From positions 1 through 36,487 of the forward strand of contig VGGK01000020.1 of assembly GCA_016868665.1 (NCBI GenBank): a stretch of 36,487 nt of DNA. Direction: 5' to 3'. A model generated the notes under the pieces. It saw only the letters and a list, made by a program, of their open reading frames with translations, was not told the origin of the DNA and did not search any database. This DNA is from Chlorobiota bacterium. Its GTDB lineage: Bacteria; Bacteroidota; Chlorobiia; Chlorobiales; Chlorobiaceae. Of this stretch, positions 24,073-36,158 are shown in pieces. A program made the translations under genes and the position numbers. Each line of letters opens with the position of its first letter. Position 1 is the first letter of the stretch.

Positions 24073-24395
24073 GTAAAATCAGTGACGAGTACTGAGTGCC
24101 GAGAGCTGAGTGAAAGACCAGAGAAAGGCAGGTGAGAGGGAGGGTGAGAACCCTCGAGGGGGTTCGACAAATAGCCGAAGGCTATTTGGACGGCGAGCGA
24201 AAGCGAGTCCGCCCCGAAGGGGTGAGGGCGAAAGCCCGAATCAATCCCTCCCTCTCCGCCAGTAAAATCAGTGACGAGTACTGAGTACCGAGAGCTGAGT
24301 GAAAGACCAGAGAAATGTTAAAGAGAGGGAGGGTGAGAACCCTCGATCGGGTTCGAAAACGGCCCAGCCGTTTCGACGGCGAGCGAAGCGAGACC
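24071..24395 (+). repeat. 189-bp direct repeat of the tRNA-Ser(GGA) 3' end and flank with a hairpin cassette
   Basis: The sequence just after tRNA-Ser(GGA) (24071-24259) is repeated from 24260 with a period of 189 bp. The second copy stops at about 24395. Each unit contains a flank, a GGGT-GAGA-ACCC hairpin, a GGTTCGA fragment of a tRNA T arm, a hairpin cassette and, in the complete copy, ATCCCTCCCTCTCCGCCA, an exact tRNA-Ser 3' end. Cassette hairpins in the first copy: AAATAGCC/GGCTATTT at 24169-24187; CGG/CCG with an inner GC-GAAA-GC at 24191-24211; CCCC/GGGG with a GAA loop at 24212-24222; GGGC/GCCC with a GAAA loop at 24226-24237. The second copy keeps hairpin 1 with changed pairs (AAACGGC/GCCGTTT) and is truncated after hairpin 2. 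Confidence 0.85.
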
Positions 24396-24463
24396 TTTAA
24401 AATTTTTCTCTGGCATTTTCTCTGCGATTCGCTATCTTTGAAGCCAGTTCTTTGCAAGTAGTT

Positions 24464-24548
24464 GGAGGATTAGCCTAATTGGTAAGGCAGCAGTCTTGAA
24501 AACTGCCGGGTTCACGCCCATGGGGGTTCGAGTCCCTCATCCTCCGCA
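24464..24548 (+). tRNA. tRNA-Ser (anticodon TGA)
   Basis: The acceptor GGAGGAT (24464-24470) pairs with ATCCTCC (24539-24545), with discriminator G24546 followed by CA. The anticodon stem GCAGT/ACTGC encloses CTTGAAA, giving anticodon TGA, which reads UCA. The variable region can form a short GGG/CCC arm, consistent with a class II serine tRNA. It is not a selenocysteine tRNA, which would have anticodon TCA and a longer acceptor branch. Confidence 0.93.
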
Positions 24549-24560
24549 CAAACACATTCA

Positions 24561-24650
<90 letters not shown>

Positions 24651-24652
<2 letters not shown>

Positions 24653-25006
24653 AAAAGCCCCGCGAAAGCGGGGTTTTTGCATTCCGGGAGGGGTTCGAAC
24701 CCGGGTGGAGGGTTCGAAAACGGCCCAGCCGTTTCGACGGCGAGCGAAAGCGAGACCGCCCCGAAGGGGTGAGGGCTGAAAGGCCCGAATCAATCCCTCC
24801 CTCTCCGCAAAAAGCCCCGCGAAAGCGGGGTTTTTGCATTCCGGGAGGGGTTCGAACCCGGGTGGAGGGTTCGAAAACGGCCCAGCCGTTTCGACGGCGA
24901 GCGAAAGCGAGACCGCCCCGAAGGGGTGAGGGCTGAAAGGCCCGAATCAATCCCTCCCTCTCCGCAAAAAGCCCCGCGAAAGCGGGGTTTTTGCATTCCG
25001 GGAGGG
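24651..25006 (+). repeat. 157-bp tandem repeat of terminator, T-arm fragments and hairpin cassette
   Basis: Two copies (24651-24807 and 24808-24964) appear identical base for base, and a third breaks off near 25006. Each unit starts at the 3' end of a serine tRNA: terminator, palindromic GGGTTCGAACCC, GGAGGGTTCGA, then hairpin 1 AAACGGC/GCCGTTT with a CCA loop (24718-24734), a CGG/CCG hairpin with inner GC-GAAA-GC, CCCC/GGGG with GAA, GGGCT/GGCCC with GAAA (24773-24786), and finally ATCCCTCCCTCTCCG, matching the last bases of tRNA-Ser(GCT). The cassette is the same kind found after tRNA-Ser(GGA), although the outer flanks differ. Spurious proteins can be read across these repeats; none is credible. 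Confidence 0.92.
24652..24678 (+). terminator. Rho-independent terminator of the tRNA-Ser genes (first of three copies)
   Basis: CCCCGC and GCGGGG pair around a GAAA tetraloop, preceded by five A and followed by five T. The same terminator recurs exactly at 24809 and 24966 as part of the 157-bp repeat. Confidence 0.92.
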
Positions 25007-25040
25007 ATGAGAACCCGAGCAGAGGGTGAGTATTCCGGGG

Positions 25041-25112
25041 AAAGTGTACCACTTGTTCTGGAGCAAACTGTACCACTGATTCAGGAGGAAAGCGTACCAC
25101 CGACCACGGGCG
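25041..25112 (+). repeat. Three 24-bp-spaced repeats, possibly a remnant insertion-sequence end
   Basis: The 12-mers AAAGTGTACCAC (25041), AAACTGTACCAC (25065) and AAAGCGTACCAC (25089) recur at exactly 24-bp intervals, with weaker similarity between them. Regularly spaced terminal repeats of this kind are known at the ends of IS21-family elements, where the transposase binds. No transposase gene is present in the window, so this may be a stranded end or an unrelated operator array. Confidence 0.5.
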
Positions 25113-27744: not shown

Positions 27745-28695
27745 ATGAAGCTGCGTTCGATTGTTCTGTTGCTCCCGATCATGCTGCTCCTCAGCACCAC
27801 GATACTGTTTGGTGCGGATGTTCCTTATCTGACCGGGAGGATTACCGATAACGCCCAGCTTCTGTCTCCGGCAGTCAACCGGTCATTGTCGGACAGCCTG
27901 CAGGCACATGAAAAACGCACCGGGAACCAGATTGCCGTGCTGACGATTCCCACGCTTGACGGGGAGAGCATCGAGGATTATGCAGTCAGGGTGTTCGAGT
28001 CATGGAAACTCGGACGGAAAGGCAGGGACAACGGCGTTCTGATCGTGGTGGTTCCCAACGACCGGCAGATGCGCATCGAAGTGGGGTACGGTCTTGAAGG
28101 AGCGCTTACCGATGCGATGGCGGGAAGGATCGTTCAGAACGTTATGACCCCGAAATTCAAAAACGGTGATTTTGACGGTGGTATTGCCGATGGAGCCGGG
28201 TCTGTGATGAAGCTTCTCGAGGGTGGCGAATTGCCGGAGGCCATCGCCGGTACCGCTTCGACGAACAAGTTGAATTTCTTTGAAGCCGAAGGACCGGAGC
28301 TTTCGATTCAGGAACGCATTCTCCTGGGTGCGTTTGTTTTCGGAATCATCGGACTGTTTACCGCGATCGGTATACTCACGCCGGGTGTCGGATGGTTTTT
28401 ATACTTGTTTCTGATACCATTCTGGGCGGTTTTTCCGATTGTAGTTCTCGGGTCAGGCGGTGCGTTCTATTGTTTTATCGCATATGTGATCGGTTTTCCG
28501 ATAACAAAACTGTTCATCAGCAAGAGCGACTGGTACCGGAAAGCTCAAAACGATCTGCGCACCAAGGGAAGTGCTTCGATCGGAGGTTTTTCGATCGGTT
28601 CCGGCAGCTCCGGCTCATCATGGTCTTCTGGAGGATCAGGTTTTTCAGGCGGAGGCGGATCATCTGGTGGTGGCGGTGCTTCAGGCAGTTGGTAG
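27745..28695 (+). CDS. TPM-domain membrane protein (YgcG-like)
   Basis: A 316-residue envelope protein. A signal peptide (about 1-24) precedes a TPM domain (about 30-155), with the family blocks VPYLTGRITDNAQLLS, NQIAVLTIPTLDGESIEDYA, DNGVLIVVVPNDRQMRIEVGYG and ALTDAMAGRIV. Three hydrophobic segments follow at roughly 192-213, 215-238 and 240-260. The tail is almost entirely Gly and Ser and ends GASGSW, as in many YgcG-like proteins. TPM domains are reported as acid phosphatase-like in plants and linked to photosystem II repair there; the bacterial role is unsettled. A GAGGAG site supports the start. The last 151 bp overlap the convergent deacylase gene on the other strand. Confidence 0.88.
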   Translation: MKLRSIVLLLPIMLLLSTTILFGADVPYLTGRITDNAQLLSPAVNRSLSDSLQAHEKRTGNQIAVLTIPTLDGESIEDYAVRVFESWKLGRKGRDNGVLIVVVPNDRQMRIEVGYGLEGALTDAMAGRIVQNVMTPKFKNGDFDGGIADGAGSVMKLLEGGELPEAIAGTASTNKLNFFEAEGPELSIQERILLGAFVFGIIGLFTAIGILTPGVGWFLYLFLIPFWAVFPIVVLGSGGAFYCFIAYVIGFPITKLFISKSDWYRKAQNDLRTKGSASIGGFSIGSGSSGSSWSSGGSGFSGGGGSSGGGGASGSW

Positions 28696-29720
28696 GACTC
28701 CATGATATAGCCGAGGCAATCCTGCCGGATAATCTTCACATCACGGGTGAACATCGATGGCACGACCGGCACACGGGTGAGAATGCGGTTTTCGCTGAAA
28801 AGGAGGTAACGGTCGGTAACGGTTTCGTTCATGTTGTCGATGACCCTGATCGGCGGCAGTTCTTTGCTAAAGCGCCCCAGTTCCGTTCCTTCGGGCACCC
28901 GCTCGAAATTGAGGGTTTCGAGGTCCTCGCGAAAACAGATGTCGGCGCTGTCATCACACTGTCCGAATCCCGGACGGGTTCCTTCAGAGAGGAGTATCCG
29001 TGCGGTGGTATGGAAGAGGTCGTTGTGATGATTGGCCGGCGGAGCGAACAGGATCTCCTCGGGCAGTTCAAGGCAGTGCCGGAGATAATTTTCGACATGT
29101 TCTGTTCCGGTCGCATCGCCTGAAACCCCGCATTCAAGCGTAACCGCAGGGCATATGGCCGACAGGGCGACTGCAAGGACTTCGTGGGGTTCCGTAAACC
29201 AGACGATGGTTTTGCTGAACCGCCTTGCAAGCGAAAGGGATTTGTGTTCGAGCCGGTTGACGCACCCATAGTGCGGGTTTTTGCCTGTGTTGTTGTGCAG
29301 ATCGATGCCGGCAACCGGAGCCGCCCTGGCAATTTCGGCCAGAACATGCCGTGCCAGCAGGTGTTCCGGATAGCGTTCACCCTGCCATATGCGATTGTAG
29401 TCGGCCTGACCGTCGAGTTTTCGCACTCCCCTAACGGCCGCGGCCACGTTGCCGACAAAGAGCAGCATCGGTCTCGGCAGCAGACGGCGGGGAGCACCGA
29501 ATCCCTCGAGGAGCTGCTGCATGGCTGAAAACCCCGTAGTTTCGTTGCCGTGCAGCAGTATCGAAACGAAGATCGGAGCCCCTTTTTCGCCCTCGATACG
29601 GATGAGCGAAGGGCCCGGCAGGATCGAGCCGAGTTTTTCGATTGCGATTCCGGTGAAGCCTTCGGGAAGCCGATCGAACAGGCGCAGATCGGGGGGTTGA
29701 TACTGGTTCAGATGCTCCAT
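28545..29720 (-). CDS. Succinylglutamate desuccinylase/aspartoacylase-like zinc deacylase
   Basis: 391 residues, related to the AstE/AspA branch of the M14 zinc peptidase clan, which hydrolyses N-acyl amino acids or amide-linked amino acids. The zinc ligands are visible as LLHGNETTG (His57, Glu60) and IDLHNNTG (His142), and the probable catalytic base is Glu196 in VTLECG. The catalytic domain ends near 345. The last 45 residues are a Pro/Asp/Glu-rich tail encoded antisense to the Gly/Ser tail of the TPM gene. The start overlaps the end of the GCS2-family gene by 13 bp, so the two are translationally coupled. Substrate is unknown; with an amidoligase partner, an acyl- or peptide-amide made by that enzyme is a reasonable inference. 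Confidence 0.85.
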   Translation of the reverse strand: MEHLNQYQPPDLRLFDRLPEGFTGIAIEKLGSILPGPSLIRIEGEKGAPIFVSILLHGNETTGFSAMQQLLEGFGAPRRLLPRPMLLFVGNVAAAVRGVRKLDGQADYNRIWQGERYPEHLLARHVLAEIARAAPVAGIDLHNNTGKNPHYGCVNRLEHKSLSLARRFSKTIVWFTEPHEVLAVALSAICPAVTLECGVSGDATGTEHVENYLRHCLELPEEILFAPPANHHNDLFHTTARILLSEGTRPGFGQCDDSADICFREDLETLNFERVPEGTELGRFSKELPPIRVIDNMNETVTDRYLLFSENRILTRVPVVPSMFTRDVKIIRQDCLGYIMESYQLPEAPPPPDDPPPPEKPDPPEDHDEPELPEPIEKPPIEALPLVRRSF

Positions 29721-31141
29721 TCGTGTACGGGAAGGTTTCCGTTCTGGTTTTCAAGGTATGCCTGGGTCATCGCCCTGAAATCGGGGCCATGCCGTCCGAT
29801 GAAGGTTCGTTGCCACCAGGCCCCGTTCCGGCGTGTCTCTACGCGCCTTGCCAGAATATCGACAAGGTAGTATCTCAGATCGTGACTGTCGAATCCGCGT
29901 TCGGCAAGAGCCGTAATTGCCCCGGGGATCAACTGTTGCAGCAGCAGGGTCTCCACCGGCAGGGCGCTTCCCGAAGTCCAGGTGACCGTGGAGTCAAGCC
30001 CGAATCGAGCGGAGGCGTAAAAATTCGACCGGGCCTGTTCGAACGATATCGAAGTTTGCGGCGCTTCGGTTTGCAGGTGAAGCATTGCGCCATAAAAAAA
30101 GAGGATATTGGCTGTGATGTCCGGGATCGATGGTCCTGCGGGGGGGACGCGATGTTCGATGCGCACATGGGGGCGGCCATCCTCTCCGAATCCGATCAGC
30201 GGGCGGTTCCAGCGCCAGATGGTTCCGTTGTGCAGCCGCAGATGGTTCATCTGGCTGAAGTCATCGTCGAACGTGACCGGAAGCAGCACCGGAAATCCGT
30301 CGAGATTTTCGAGGAAGACCTCTTTAAGCGAATTGCGGACGTAATCCCGCCCGAAGGTGACGCGCGAAACCATTCGACCGGAGATATCAACGAATGCCGG
30401 CGATTTTACGGCCTGCTCGTACAGGGGGATGCGAGTTTCATCCCAGAGTTCCCTGCAGAAGAGGAACGGAGAGTTGGCTGTGAGTGCGACCATCGGTGCC
30501 GACAGCACATGGGCAATGTTGTAAAAAGCTGCCGCATTGCTGACCGGCACCTGAAAGTGGATCTGCAGCGATGTCGTGGCCGCCTCGGCCATAACGTCAT
30601 GATGGACGATCTCCAGCGAATCTTTCGTGCCCTCTATATGTATCTTAAGCGGGTTCGAGGATCTCAAACGAAGGATTTCGCGGTTCAGCGCATGATACCT
30701 TTGGAGCGAAGAGATGTTCCGGAGCGTCAGCATTCTGTCCTGCAAGGTCGGCAGGATGCCGGTCATAAGGATATTGCACCCCATGTCGCGGGCATTGACT
30801 GTGCAGATCTGCCAGAGCTTCTGCAGTTCCCCGTTCAGGAATGCCGGAAGATTGCGATCGAGCGGATGCGGAGTGATGTTGAGCTCGAAGTTGTATTTCG
30901 ACAGTTCAGGTACGACCAGCGGGTTGTTGACCCGCCGGAGGAACTCCTCGTTTCTCGGGACAGGATCGCAATGCCGATCGACGATCCAGCCTTCGAGTTC
31001 GAGGCCGCACATCTCCTGATGTTTTTCGAAAACATCCGAGGAAAACCATTCCATCAGAATCAGCGTTTCCTTTCTCAGATTCTGGCGAAACTGCCGGAAA
31101 TCTTCGTCGCTGAACTCGGTTTTTGCTATTTCACTGCCCAT
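29708..31141 (-). CDS. GCS2-family carboxylate-amine ligase (glutamate-cysteine ligase-like)
   Basis: 477 residues with the glutamine-synthetase-like fold of the GCS2 amidoligases, which join a glutamate-type carboxylate to an amine using ATP. Supporting segments are CGLELEGWIVD near 45-55, KYNFELNITPHPL around 92-104, a central TTSLQIHFQVPVSNA block and the C-terminal RPHVRIEHRVPPAGPSIPD. True glutathione synthesis is unlikely: no gshB-like gene is adjacent, and green sulfur bacteria are reported to use a methylated bacillithiol instead. Coupling with an AstE/AspA-like deacylase points to a different small-molecule or peptide modification. The opposite strand is open for 490 codons across this gene; the minus-strand frame is the one with family motifs. 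Confidence 0.82.
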   Translation of the reverse strand: MGSEIAKTEFSDEDFRQFRQNLRKETLILMEWFSSDVFEKHQEMCGLELEGWIVDRHCDPVPRNEEFLRRVNNPLVVPELSKYNFELNITPHPLDRNLPAFLNGELQKLWQICTVNARDMGCNILMTGILPTLQDRMLTLRNISSLQRYHALNREILRLRSSNPLKIHIEGTKDSLEIVHHDVMAEAATTSLQIHFQVPVSNAAAFYNIAHVLSAPMVALTANSPFLFCRELWDETRIPLYEQAVKSPAFVDISGRMVSRVTFGRDYVRNSLKEVFLENLDGFPVLLPVTFDDDFSQMNHLRLHNGTIWRWNRPLIGFGEDGRPHVRIEHRVPPAGPSIPDITANILFFYGAMLHLQTEAPQTSISFEQARSNFYASARFGLDSTVTWTSGSALPVETLLLQQLIPGAITALAERGFDSHDLRYYLVDILARRVETRRNGAWWQRTFIGRHGPDFRAMTQAYLENQNGNLPVHEWSI

Positions 31142-31432
31142 CGGTATGTCGTTAGTTACTTCAATCTGAACAATCGGTTTGTCAGATGCAAATGATTTGC
31201 CGGGAGTTCCATGAATCTCGCTTTTGCATTCGGCCTGACTTGTTCCGAAACGTAAAGGGTGAAGCTGGCGGCTTCTGCGAATTGTTTATATTGATTCAAA
31301 ATAGAGTATTGCGGCTGTGCATCGCAGACCGTGCGCTGTAAATCCGGTTATCGTCCGAGCGAGAGCAGGGCCGATACCGATACGAATGGAATGGGCGTGA
31401 CCGGTAATTATGAACGATTGACAAGCATTGCC
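31142..31432 (+). other. Divergent intergenic region
   Basis: It separates the amidoligase operon from the ChaN-like gene and should hold both promoters. The plus-strand frame of the latter extends upstream into this region to 31331, but the extension (MRCKSGYRPSES...) lacks protein-like features. TTGATTCAAAATAG near 31291 is AT-rich but not a convincing promoter. No riboswitch consensus was recognised. Confidence 0.35.
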
Positions 31433-32293
31433 ATGTTTTACAAGATTTTTATCCTGCTTTTCGCAGCGGCCTTCGGTTTCAGCGCGTACGGTCGCGATAA
31501 AGCGGCATTTGTTCTCTATGACAATGCCGGTAAAAAGGCGAGCTATCATAAGTTGCTGAAGAAAGCGAAGAAAAGCGATGTCGTATTGTTTGGGGAATTG
31601 CACGACAACCCCATCGCACATTGGCTGCAGCTGGAGCTCACCAGGGACTTGCATAAAACAAACAGGCTGATTCTTGGCGCCGAAATGTTCGAAGCCGACA
31701 ATCAGAAAGCGCTTGACGATTACCTGTCCGGCCGGATTGATTCGGCCGGGCTGGATTCCCTTGCCCGTCTCTGGCCTAACTACAAAACGGATTATGCTCC
31801 TCTGGTGGATTTTGCCAGGGATCATCGGGTAAGGTTTATCGCATCGAATATTCCAAAAAGATTTGCCCGTCTGGTTCACAAAAACGGAGGCTTTGCCGCT
31901 CTTGATTCGCTCGGCAATGAAGAAAAAAGCTGGATTGCGCCATTGCCGGTTCATTTCGATCCCGAACTGCCGGGTTACAGGAACATGCTGACGATGATGG
32001 GTGGACATGGTACTCCCGGGATGGTGAAGGCCCAGGCCATCAAAGACGCCACCATGGCCCATTTTATATTACTGAACCATAAGCCGGGCCATGTTTTTCT
32101 TCATTTCAACGGGGCATACCATTCGGACGATTATGAAGGTATTGTATTCTATCTGCGGCACAAGAACGACTCCTTGCGATATATGACCATCACCACGGTT
32201 GAGCAGGAAAATATCCGGCACCTGGAAAAGCAGCACAGAGGTCGCGCCGATTTCATCATCTGCGTGGACAGCGATATGACGAAAACTTACTGA
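31433..32293 (+). CDS. ChaN-like haem-binding protein (DUF399/ChaN family)
   Basis: About 287 residues. The start chosen at 31433 places a signal peptide (FYKIFILLFAAAFGFSAYG) at the N-terminus; the frame extends 34 codons further but without sense. The family signature GELHDNP lies at residues 54-60, followed by LILGAEMFEADNQKALDDYL and a C-terminal GHVFLHFNGAYHSDD block. ChaN of Campylobacter binds haem and is iron-regulated; relatives include the TIKI protease-like superfamily. It is likely exported to the periplasm; there is no lipobox cysteine. An iron or haem role is inferred from the family only. It converges with the Pro/Ala-rich gene. Confidence 0.85.
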   Translation: MFYKIFILLFAAAFGFSAYGRDKAAFVLYDNAGKKASYHKLLKKAKKSDVVLFGELHDNPIAHWLQLELTRDLHKTNRLILGAEMFEADNQKALDDYLSGRIDSAGLDSLARLWPNYKTDYAPLVDFARDHRVRFIASNIPKRFARLVHKNGGFAALDSLGNEEKSWIAPLPVHFDPELPGYRNMLTMMGGHGTPGMVKAQAIKDATMAHFILLNHKPGHVFLHFNGAYHSDDYEGIVFYLRHKNDSLRYMTITTVEQENIRHLEKQHRGRADFIICVDSDMTKTY

Positions 32294-33152: not shown

Positions 33153-34517
33153 ATGCAAGCCGAAAAACACCTTTTTGCCACAAACCCGCTCCTCGGCGCG
33201 TTCCTCAGAAAGAGAGCGGTGGAGCGCCTGTTTTCGGGCCACAGCCGTGAGGCCGCCCTTGAACTGTCAAGCGCGGTAGAGAACGGGCATCCGGAATCGG
33301 ATGCGATATTCCGCCGTCTGCTGCTCCTGCAGCACAGCGACGAGCCGGTCATGCACGTCGCGCTCTGGAACTACTGGAAATCACGTCGTTTCGAAGAGCT
33401 GCTGAAGAGGACGCACGCTTCCGAAGCGCTTCGGCAGGATATGCTCGAGGCGATTGAGGCCATGCCGGAAACCGACTGGGGCAACGGTATGGTATTCACG
33501 CTCTGGAGTATCGCCGATCGCGACGACATCGCCGAAAAGATCGAAGCGAAAAGCCGCCATGCGCCCGCGCTTGAGATGGACGCCCTGTTCGGGCTTGCGC
33601 GAGGCAATCCGGAGCGCTATCTCGCTCTTGAAGATCCCGATCACTCAATTTTCGAAAAAGCATGGCTTGCCGCATCTTCCGCCCGGAGGCAGCGGATCAG
33701 CACCACGGTCCTCCAAAGTCAGAATCCCCGGCTTGTGGCGGCTTACGACCATGCCGTCAGGGAGGGGCACGACCCGCAACTGGTGATCGAGGCCCTTAAA
33801 CTCTGCGGCGATCACGATGCGCTGCTCGACCGGCTGCACGGTTTGCCCTTCACCAGTGCGCTCGAGGTTGTCGCCTACTGGGAAGAGAGCGGCGGAAGGC
33901 CGAAAAACCCCTCCGGAAAAGCGGTCGTCGAGGCTGCGGTCGCCCTCTATCGGGAACTGCCGGGGCTTCTTCCGGAATCACGGTCGGCCCAGCCGTCCCT
34001 TCCGCCCGGCACGAGGGATATCTTCTCGTTCTGGACGGAACGGTATGGGTCCGGCGAGCTGCAGGAGCAGGATCTTTCGAGCCCGGATCCCTTCAGACGG
34101 GCCGGAGCGCTCTTTGCCGGAGCGCAGCGGGGATCGGTTCCCCGCAGCAGGCTGCAGGAGATCACCCTGAACGGCACCTGGCCCGAAAAACTCGCGCTGC
34201 ACTACCTCGTTACCGTTCCGGAGGGAGGCTCCCGGCAGGAGCACGTCTGCTGGCTCCGGCCGCAGGACAACATCGTGGCCGGTATCCTCGCGACACGCCT
34301 GCCCGGTTCGCCGGAAGAGAGCAGTATGCTGATGGACAGGCTGTATACCGGTGCCGGACAGGCCGACCGGTCGGCGGGGCTTCAGGCCAGACTCCTGCAA
34401 TTGCTGTCGCTCCTGCAGGGGTACTTTCTTCGCGGTCTGATCACCGTTGACAGCAGCGACGACGCTACCGAAAAAACTGCCGTGGAGACGGAAGAACTGA
34501 AGGATATGGAGTGGTAA
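33153..34517 (+). CDS. Uncharacterised alpha-helical protein of the Hsp70 cluster
   Basis: I do not recognise this 454-residue protein. It is soluble, with no signal or membrane span, and rich in Leu, Ala, Arg and Glu with repeating helix-turn patterns, suggesting a HEAT- or TPR-like solenoid. Short similar phrases recur, such as FRRLLLLQHSDEPVMHVALW and the later ALKLCGDHDALLDRLHGLP, but no clean repeat unit could be aligned by eye. Its only clear context is the Hsp70 gene 21 bp downstream, almost certainly cotranscribed from the promoter at 33088. A role as adaptor or scaffold for that Hsp70 is an inference. The ATG lacks a ribosome binding site. Confidence 0.75.
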   Translation: MQAEKHLFATNPLLGAFLRKRAVERLFSGHSREAALELSSAVENGHPESDAIFRRLLLLQHSDEPVMHVALWNYWKSRRFEELLKRTHASEALRQDMLEAIEAMPETDWGNGMVFTLWSIADRDDIAEKIEAKSRHAPALEMDALFGLARGNPERYLALEDPDHSIFEKAWLAASSARRQRISTTVLQSQNPRLVAAYDHAVREGHDPQLVIEALKLCGDHDALLDRLHGLPFTSALEVVAYWEESGGRPKNPSGKAVVEAAVALYRELPGLLPESRSAQPSLPPGTRDIFSFWTERYGSGELQEQDLSSPDPFRRAGALFAGAQRGSVPRSRLQEITLNGTWPEKLALHYLVTVPEGGSRQEHVCWLRPQDNIVAGILATRLPGSPEESSMLMDRLYTGAGQADRSAGLQARLLQLLSLLQGYFLRGLITVDSSDDATEKTAVETEELKDMEW

Positions 34518-34538
34518 CCCATGATAACCGTTTGAAAA

Positions 34539-36158
34539 ATGGCTCTCGCTTTTGATTTCGGGACATGCAACAGCGTGGTCGCACGCTGGAACGAAGCCCT
34601 GCATGCCGTGGAAACTCCCGAACTGCCCAATCTCGGCATAAGGTTTCCCCAGCCGGGATCGGAACCCGCGAGGGTCATTCCCTCCGTCATTCATTTTACG
34701 GAAGATAACGGGCTCCTTGCCGGCAGTCAGGTCGGCGCTTCAGGTCTTGTCAACCATCCGGGAACGTTCAGGTGGCTGAAAATGGATATGCTCCGCACCG
34801 GCGGGGCCAATCGCGGACGGCGCGTCAACGGCAGGGTTATCTATCCCCGCCATGCGGCGGACGAGCTCGTCGATCGCATCCTGATGTTCGTGCGCGGCTA
34901 TTTCGGCGACATTGACGAGGAGATCGTGCTGACCGTCCCGGTGGAAGCTTTCGACCACTATATCGACTGGCTGCGCGAAGCGGCCATAAAACGGTTTCCG
35001 GGAGGGATCACCTTCATCGACGAGGCAACCGCCTGCATGCTCGGGTACAGCGACGGGGTGCTCGACGGCGAAGCGTACTGCATCGTGGATTTCGGCGGCG
35101 GCACCCTCGACGTTTCGATAGTCCGTACCGATCTGCTGCATGCCGGTCATACGAAATGCCGATTGCTTGGCCGGGCCGGCGAGGAGATCGGCGGCATCAT
35201 GGTCGATAACTGGCTGCTGGAACACATCCAGGAACGGGAGGGACTCTCGGATGACGATATCGCCTCGATCGGCCCGTCCCTGCTCGAAGCGATTGAGGGG
35301 GCGAAAATAGCCATCTCCAGCGGCAGCGAAGCGTCGTCGTTCGCGTGCTATAACGACGTTACCGGCCGTCTTATCGAGGTCACCCTCACTGCCGGTACCC
35401 TGAAGGAGGTGCTCGAGAAAAAACGGGAGCCCGGCAGGAACAGCCTCTACCAGCACATCATCCGCACGCTCGACCGCGCCCTCGATCAGGCGCGCGACCG
35501 GGCCGGTATGCGCAAGGAGGAGCTCAAGGGGGTTTTTCTCGTAGGGGGGAGCAGCCTGCTGCCGGGCATCGAAGAGAAAATCCGGGAGTTTTTTCCACTC
35601 TGCGACGTTCATGCAGGCAACCCCTTCGAAGCTATCGCCCGTGGCGCATGCCGCTTCTCCGGCGGGATGTTCGACCAGACGCTGACGCATGATTACTGCC
35701 TGCGCAGCTGGAACCGGGAACTCCGGGATTTCGAACTGGTTCCCGTCGTTGCGCGCGGCACCCCGTACCCGACCGGCAAACCGGTGTGCAGCAAGTATAT
35801 CAAGGCCGCCTCGGACAACCAGGAGACGCTCGGGCTGGTCATTTATGAGCGGTCATCGATGATCCGTCCATTGATCACCTACGTCAACGGGGCCGACGGC
35901 TTGCGTCCGGTACGGGAAGGGGAGCGGGAGGAGAGCCGGCATAAGCCGCTCAACCCCGAAGACAGCGAGTTCATCCATGCCGAGCCGCCCTGCCGTTCGG
36001 GAGAGCGGCGCTTCATCGCAGGGTTCGGGGTGGACGGCAACCGCCGCCTTACGCTCTGGCTGCGAGATACGGAGGAGAACAACCGTTCCTGGATCCTGCT
36101 GCGCGACGGCTCGCGATTGCCGTTGCCGGTGAGTGATCTGCCGGTGGTAAAACTGTGA
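34539..36158 (+). CDS. Divergent Hsp70-family ATPase
   Basis: 539 residues with a complete actin-like Hsp70 ATPase domain: phosphate-1 loop FDFGTCNSVVARW at the N-terminus, a Lys in RWLKMDML matching the catalytic position, VPVEAFDHYIDWLREAA, phosphate-2 loop VDFGGGTLDVSIV (Asp184) and adenosine loop FLVGGSSLLPGIEEKI. ATPase activity is therefore expected. After about residue 380 it does not look like the DnaK substrate-binding domain and lid; instead there is a shorter beta-rich region of about 160 residues with no EEVD-like tail. No DnaJ or GrpE gene is adjacent. It sits between the helical protein and an AAA+ ATPase, indicating a specialised chaperone machine, not general protein folding. 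Confidence 0.9.
   Translation: MALAFDFGTCNSVVARWNEALHAVETPELPNLGIRFPQPGSEPARVIPSVIHFTEDNGLLAGSQVGASGLVNHPGTFRWLKMDMLRTGGANRGRRVNGRVIYPRHAADELVDRILMFVRGYFGDIDEEIVLTVPVEAFDHYIDWLREAAIKRFPGGITFIDEATACMLGYSDGVLDGEAYCIVDFGGGTLDVSIVRTDLLHAGHTKCRLLGRAGEEIGGIMVDNWLLEHIQEREGLSDDDIASIGPSLLEAIEGAKIAISSGSEASSFACYNDVTGRLIEVTLTAGTLKEVLEKKREPGRNSLYQHIIRTLDRALDQARDRAGMRKEELKGVFLVGGSSLLPGIEEKIREFFPLCDVHAGNPFEAIARGACRFSGGMFDQTLTHDYCLRSWNRELRDFELVPVVARGTPYPTGKPVCSKYIKAASDNQETLGLVIYERSSMIRPLITYVNGADGLRPVREGEREESRHKPLNPEDSEFIHAEPPCRSGERRFIAGFGVDGNRRLTLWLRDTEENNRSWILLRDGSRLPLPVSDLPVVKL

Follow-up and report, generated by a model that had tools for sequence, protein, structure and literature searches.

Carboxylate-amine ligases with a GxExE signature have been described in PMC2588565, in the excerpts of which such a ligase lies beside a glutamine-amidotransferase-like peptidase or an Aig2 cyclotransferase, combining a GCS-fold ligase with an amide cutter. 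The Pup ligase PafA and the depupylase Dop likewise oppose a ligase of the glutamine synthetase (GS) fold to a hydrolase, both proteins being of the GS fold. CphZ, a cyanophycin dipeptide hydrolase (isodipeptidase) with an M14/AstE-like fold, cuts beta-Asp-Arg (excerpts of PMC10206079). Here, we describe a gene pair of the same logic and different make-up, found in a stretch of 36,487 nucleotides (hereafter, the window: contig VGGK01000020.1 of assembly GCA_016868665.1, positions 1 to 36,487 of the forward strand) from a Chlorobiota bacterium of the Chlorobiaceae. A GCS2/YbdK-like carboxylate-amine ligase gene (29708..31141, minus strand, 477 residues) and an AstE/AspA-like zinc amidohydrolase gene (28545..29720, minus strand, 391 residues) overlap there by 13 bp (ATGGAGCATCTGA, 29708..29720, minus strand). 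Both open reading frames (ORFs) and their overlap lie where a previous sequence-only reading had placed them. As compared with the PMC2588565 excerpts, the ligase belongs to a different family, and the hydrolases of those systems are unrelated to ours; as compared with PafA and Dop, the hydrolase is an unrelated zinc enzyme. We propose, with a probability of about one half, that the pair is a self-contained module that makes and breaks one amide, probably a gamma-glutamyl compound or a related isopeptide.

The Pfam assignment of the ligase is marginal, with 21.8 bits against PF04107 (GCS2) for a cut-off of 21; its relative L028 falls under the cut-off (17.9 bits), and a six-frame PF04107 search of the window's own genome at E<=0.001 returned no match. 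That it is, by sequence profile and predicted structure, a divergent GCS2/YbdK relative is secured by profile-profile and fold comparisons. An alignment of 55 homologues (the window and 54 of 80 fetched loci, chosen as full-length and varied) matches YbdK and 12 canonical GCS2 proteins over the whole domain in hhalign (99.4%, E 1.5e-20). The AlphaFold2 model (predicted local distance difference test score, pLDDT, 95.8) superposes in VIA-align with the YbdK-type structure 1tt4 (Z 37.9, root-mean-square deviation (rmsd) 2.3, 342 residues aligned), with the plant glutamate-cysteine ligase (GCL) 2gwc (Z 32.8, rmsd 2.7, 377 aligned) and with the yeast GCL 3ig5 (Z 29.4, rmsd 2.9, 461 aligned of 477 residues). 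The GxExE motif (G46, E48, E50), E86, H195, R237, E329 and R331 are invariant in 55/55 aligned homologues, and GxExE, H195 and E329/R331 align to their YbdK counterparts. The ligase thus shares fold, active-site motifs and size class with the YbdK/GCS2 ligases, but differs in an extra segment at residues ~165-190 that YbdK lacks in the alignment, in its near-cut-off Pfam score and in having no RimK neighbour. With the eukaryotic GCLs it shares the fold; however, no sequence match to them was found, and ligases of the window type occur in hosts without glutathione synthetase. A PDB sequence search returned nothing useful, profile comparison with E. coli GshA gave no match, and the score against the EgtA equivalog (13.3 bits for a cut-off of 370.8) places the protein outside that group. 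Among distant relatives, L029, L031 and L108 (by Pfam) and L030 (by similarity to L029) carry C-terminal CBS domains and have no recognised AstE partner within the stretch searched. L153 encodes a divergent ligase that likewise has no AstE; its gene is flanked by one for a class-II glutamine amidotransferase and one for a putative cyclase, and may belong to a different pathway.

The hydrolase scores 32.7 bits against PF24827 (AstE_AspA_cat; cut-off 25), and its model (pLDDT 91.2) superposes in VIA-align with the succinylglutamate desuccinylase 1yw4 (Z 21.4, rmsd 3.7, 274 aligned) and, more weakly, with CphZ 8eip (Z 17.6, rmsd 4.0, 270 aligned). H57-x2-E60, R100, N109-R110, H142, E196 and Y338 are invariant in 47/47 aligned homologues (46 loci and the window, chosen as full-length and varied), and the HGNE, R, NR, H and E residues align with those of AstE and aspartoacylase. 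Going by the aspartoacylase literature, these are the zinc-binding and catalytic residues. Profile and model agree on a zinc enzyme of AstE/AspA type, and both enzyme classes put forward by the sequence-only reading, a GCS2 amidoligase and an AstE/AspA-like deacylase, are borne out by Pfam, profile, fold and motifs. The protein shares the fold and the zinc and catalytic motifs of AstE and aspartoacylase. The equivalog model TIGR03242 (17 bits for a cut-off of 305.65) does not class it as a succinylglutamate desuccinylase. Unlike in the AstE setting, no arginine-succinyltransferase cluster is found among the annotated recurrent neighbours of the pair. The likeness to CphZ is one of fold and, we infer, of isopeptide cleavage, although the partner here is a GCS2-type ligase; it provides a precedent for the chemistry, since the fold family does cut side-chain-linked dipeptides (excerpts of PMC10206079).

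The strongest evidence that the two genes form one functional unit is their co-inheritance, adjacency and natural fusion. Of 232 genomes from the class to which Ectothiorhodospira shaposhnikovii belongs, 87 carry the ligase and 86 the hydrolase: 84 have both, three the ligase only, two the hydrolase only and 143 neither (Fisher p 7.6e-57, a test that ignores relatedness). The sequence-only reading had proposed the coupling and a survey of its conservation, and the coupling stands, both genes being present in 84 of the 89 genomes with either. In 76/84 genomes with both, the genes are neighbours on the same strand, no more than 1.5 kb apart. They also co-occur without linkage; in G127, for example, a single 2.96-Mb contig carries them at a great distance from each other. 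Two single-ORF fusions of ligase and hydrolase, 46% identical, were found (L052, 820 residues; L142, 815 residues). In the window's own genus, 7/37 genomes searched carry the ligase and the identical seven carry the hydrolase, while 0/12 genomes searched from the rest of the order carry the ligase. A scan of named genomes returned at least 594 ligase relatives, the best 80 of which were kept; these are mostly from gammaproteobacteria (purple sulfur bacteria, sulfur-oxidising symbionts, methanotrophs), the others being from alphaproteobacteria, a Nitrospinaceae bin, Bdellovibrio relatives, two Chlorobi and actinobacteria. Viral contigs gave no match. The hydrolase lies downstream of the ligase in 63 of these 80 loci; in 8 of the remaining 17 the sequence runs no more than 431 bp past the ligase stop, and one of these eight (L035) shows the beginning of a hydrolase.

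The overlap itself is conserved in the green sulfur bacteria (Chlorobi), with 13 bp in 9/9 pairs examined, the window included, and identical bases in seven. In the window, the hydrolase start codon falls within the codons for Glu-Trp near the ligase C-terminus, and this tryptophan (Trp475) is invariant in the family alignment. Among the 63 loci with a recognised hydrolase, 11 have a 13-bp overlap, two of them Chlorobi. Phylogenetic trees were built from 62 pairs, namely the window with five others of its genus and, once the L052 fusion and pairs with a short hydrolase or an incomplete ligase had been removed, 56 of the 63 recognised pairs. Both trees unite the Chlorobi copies in a single group, with support of 0.915 and 0.949. 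The Nitrospinaceae bin is nearest to them in the ligase tree (0.826), and the support for the nearest relative in the hydrolase tree is only 0.039. That few genomes of the genus have the pair is consistent with acquisition by transfer together with loss. In the four closest of five Chlorobi comparisons, nonsynonymous divergence (dN) is ~0.08-0.12 and synonymous divergence (dS) ~0.5-0.7, with dN/dS ~0.14-0.19, the fifth (L028) being too divergent for a usable dS. Conservation of the pair, with purifying selection between the Chlorobi copies, shows that it is not a chance arrangement.

If the pair forms one make/break module, the GCS2-like ligase would phosphorylate a carboxylate with ATP, most likely the one in the gamma position of a glutamate-like substrate, and pass it to an amine to yield an amide, such as the isopeptide gamma-Glu-X. 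The AstE/AspA-like zinc enzyme would then hydrolyse this N-acyl-amino-acid amide, or one closely related to it, and return the parts, while the translational overlap may keep the two enzymes in step. Physiologically, the amide may be a way to pool an amino acid or amine, to hold it in reserve or to protect it. Several observations weigh against this proposal. The substrate is predicted, glutamate as acyl donor being suggested by family precedent, and other GS-fold ligases use other carboxylates. The hydrolase is absent from 9/72 ligase loci with more than 431 bp downstream (L062, L067, L091, L092, L099 and L108-L111) and from 3/87 ligase genomes of the Ectothiorhodospira class, and it occurs without the ligase, next to MurU, in G187 and G297. 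Finally, the distance matrices of ligase and hydrolase correlate (r 0.78 for the 62 pairs, 0.74 for the 54 pairs without Chlorobi), which speaks for the module, but this r includes ordinary species relatedness.

The alternative that survives best, though doubtful, is an accessory role in cell-wall recycling, in which the pair would act on a peptidoglycan-derived acid or peptide near MurU and AmgK, for example on a D-Glu or peptide amide formed or trimmed on recycled muropeptides. Flanking genes vary strongly across 125 loci, and the main recurrent partner, in gammaproteobacteria, is a MurU-like gene, a name given for its Pfam class and for the AmgK-like and LptD genes next to it; tallies over these 125 loci describe a non-random sample, the 40 extra regions having been picked mainly for having no listed MurU nearby. 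This gene lies upstream of the ligase in 35/80 fetched loci; in the Ectothiorhodospira class it is at most 4 kb upstream in at least 45/87 carriers. Two settings at least can be told apart, LptD-AmgK-MurU (sometimes with SurA) and thioredoxin-Rho-MurU, the thioredoxin being assigned by reading its sequence. The hydrolases without ligase in the two genomes named above also adjoin MurU, a point in favour of this explanation. However, among the matches listed, the MurU-like gene is elsewhere in the genome in 35/87 carriers, and the setting near MurU may go back to a single ancestral operon passed on by inheritance. Moreover, such nucleotidyltransferases as the Chlorobi carriers possess are distant ones (<=38% identity; G001 has none at E<=1e-10), and there are none in G067 and G107, two carriers of the Bdellovibrio type. 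MurU is therefore not required, and the cell-wall explanation was weighed and, as the Chlorobi carriers have no close MurU, not adopted; for the MurU-linked branch it stays a candidate. The variation of the flanking genes between genomes argues for a substrate from general metabolism. The pair does not replace Mpl either, since mpl is present in 208/232 genomes of the Ectothiorhodospira class, with or without the pair.

An ordinary glutamate-cysteine ligase serving glutathione synthesis is suggested by the fold match to YbdK and to plant and yeast GCL, by the weak EgtA match (13.3 versus 370.8 bits) and by an above-cut-off glutathione synthetase domain in 42/56 carrier genomes searched, of which 50 came from the 80 loci and six had been found before. 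Such a role is very unlikely and was rejected. No gshB domain (PF02955) scores above the cut-off in any of the eight Chlorobi carriers searched (G000, G001, G008, G030, G032, G035, G061 and G062; one match in G035, at E 9.2e-4, is below it), nor in the carriers G063, G065, G075, G107, G109 and G110. Chlorobiaceae genomes have no glutathione biosynthesis genes according to the excerpts of PMC6282198, their thiol being N-methyl-bacillithiol, and we found bshC in 60/61 genomes of the window's genus. The near-obligate hydrolase would also be left unexplained. Glutathione is thus not the product in green sulfur carriers, as the sequence-only reading had held for these bacteria.

Protein modification analogous to PafA and Dop is highly improbable. 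The ligase belongs to the same fold superfamily, and its model matches PafA 4bjr (Z 18.1, rmsd 3.8, 304 aligned) and Dop 9cku (Z 19.7, rmsd 3.7, 305 aligned), but far more weakly than the YbdK and GCL ligases (Z 29-38). The hydrolase is of amino-acid deacylase type, and no recurrent small partner gene was seen among called ORFs (those under 70 residues were not called). It is scarcely credible, in turn, that the pair makes and removes glutathione amide, a form of glutathione that carries an amide at its C-terminus and is made by purple sulfur bacteria, although many carriers belong to these bacteria and the amide has been inferred for Chromatiaceae and Ectothiorhodospiraceae (excerpts of PMC8877833). 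Carriers without gshB exist; one carrier, L095, is of the Halorhodospira type, a group inferred to have unamidated glutathione (excerpts of PMC8877833); and one study did not find the amide in Allochromatium vinosum (excerpts of PMC4213376). This explanation was rejected on the same absence of gshB and on the Halorhodospira-type carrier. It gains something from the lack of a known amidating enzyme: to our knowledge, after a search that was not exhaustive, none has been described for glutathione amide. A branch of the peptide systems combining GCS2 with RimK-like ATP-grasp enzymes, for which the sequence-only reading had proposed to look for a RimK-like gene nearby, can be discarded for these loci, since E. 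coli RimK (tblastn, E<=0.01) finds no match at 127 pair loci (1.63 Mb) and finds one beside 5/12 canonical GCS2 genes, so that RimK/GCS2 neighbourhoods belong to another branch. Those five (L159-L163) are gammaproteobacterial canonical GCS2 genes with an adjoining RimK-like gene, on a branch distinct from the pair.

Around the module in the window, a TPM-domain protein gene (27745..28695, plus strand) is convergent with the hydrolase gene and overlaps it by 151 bp, and a ChaN/Tiki-type protein gene (31331..32293, plus strand) is divergent from the ligase gene; both lie outside the module. The hydrolase gene extends by ~45 codons into the TPM gene (28545..28695). Its C-terminal tail (residues ~345-391; 28545..28688, minus strand) is rich in proline, as it is read antisense to the part of the TPM gene that encodes a Gly/Ser-rich end; the tail has low confidence in the predicted model and is absent from relatives, which stop near residue 355. 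Elsewhere, a tandem repeat occupies 24635..25017 (157-bp unit, 2.4 copies, 98% matches), and the ORFs at 24182..25100 look like translated tandem repeat rather than genes. Within 33153..36158, a 454-residue protein without Pfam or NCBIfam match is encoded directly upstream of an Hsp70-like gene (539 residues).

No published description of the pair was found; a 2009 amidoligase survey covering GCS2 neighbourhoods lay outside this search and may mention it. Mostly overlooked by standard Pfam searches, the ligase family is nevertheless present in 87/232 genomes of one proteobacterial class, and this frequency, with the hydrolase almost always along, points to a common metabolite or repair cycle. 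A small and self-contained pair, which also occurs naturally as a fusion, lends itself to direct testing. Tentatively, the two genes may encode a synthetase and a dedicated hydrolase for a so far overlooked small amide, a gamma-glutamyl compound or the like; this metabolite would be cycled in about a third of the sampled genomes of the Ectothiorhodospira class and would have been passed to some green sulfur bacteria, working there without glutathione.

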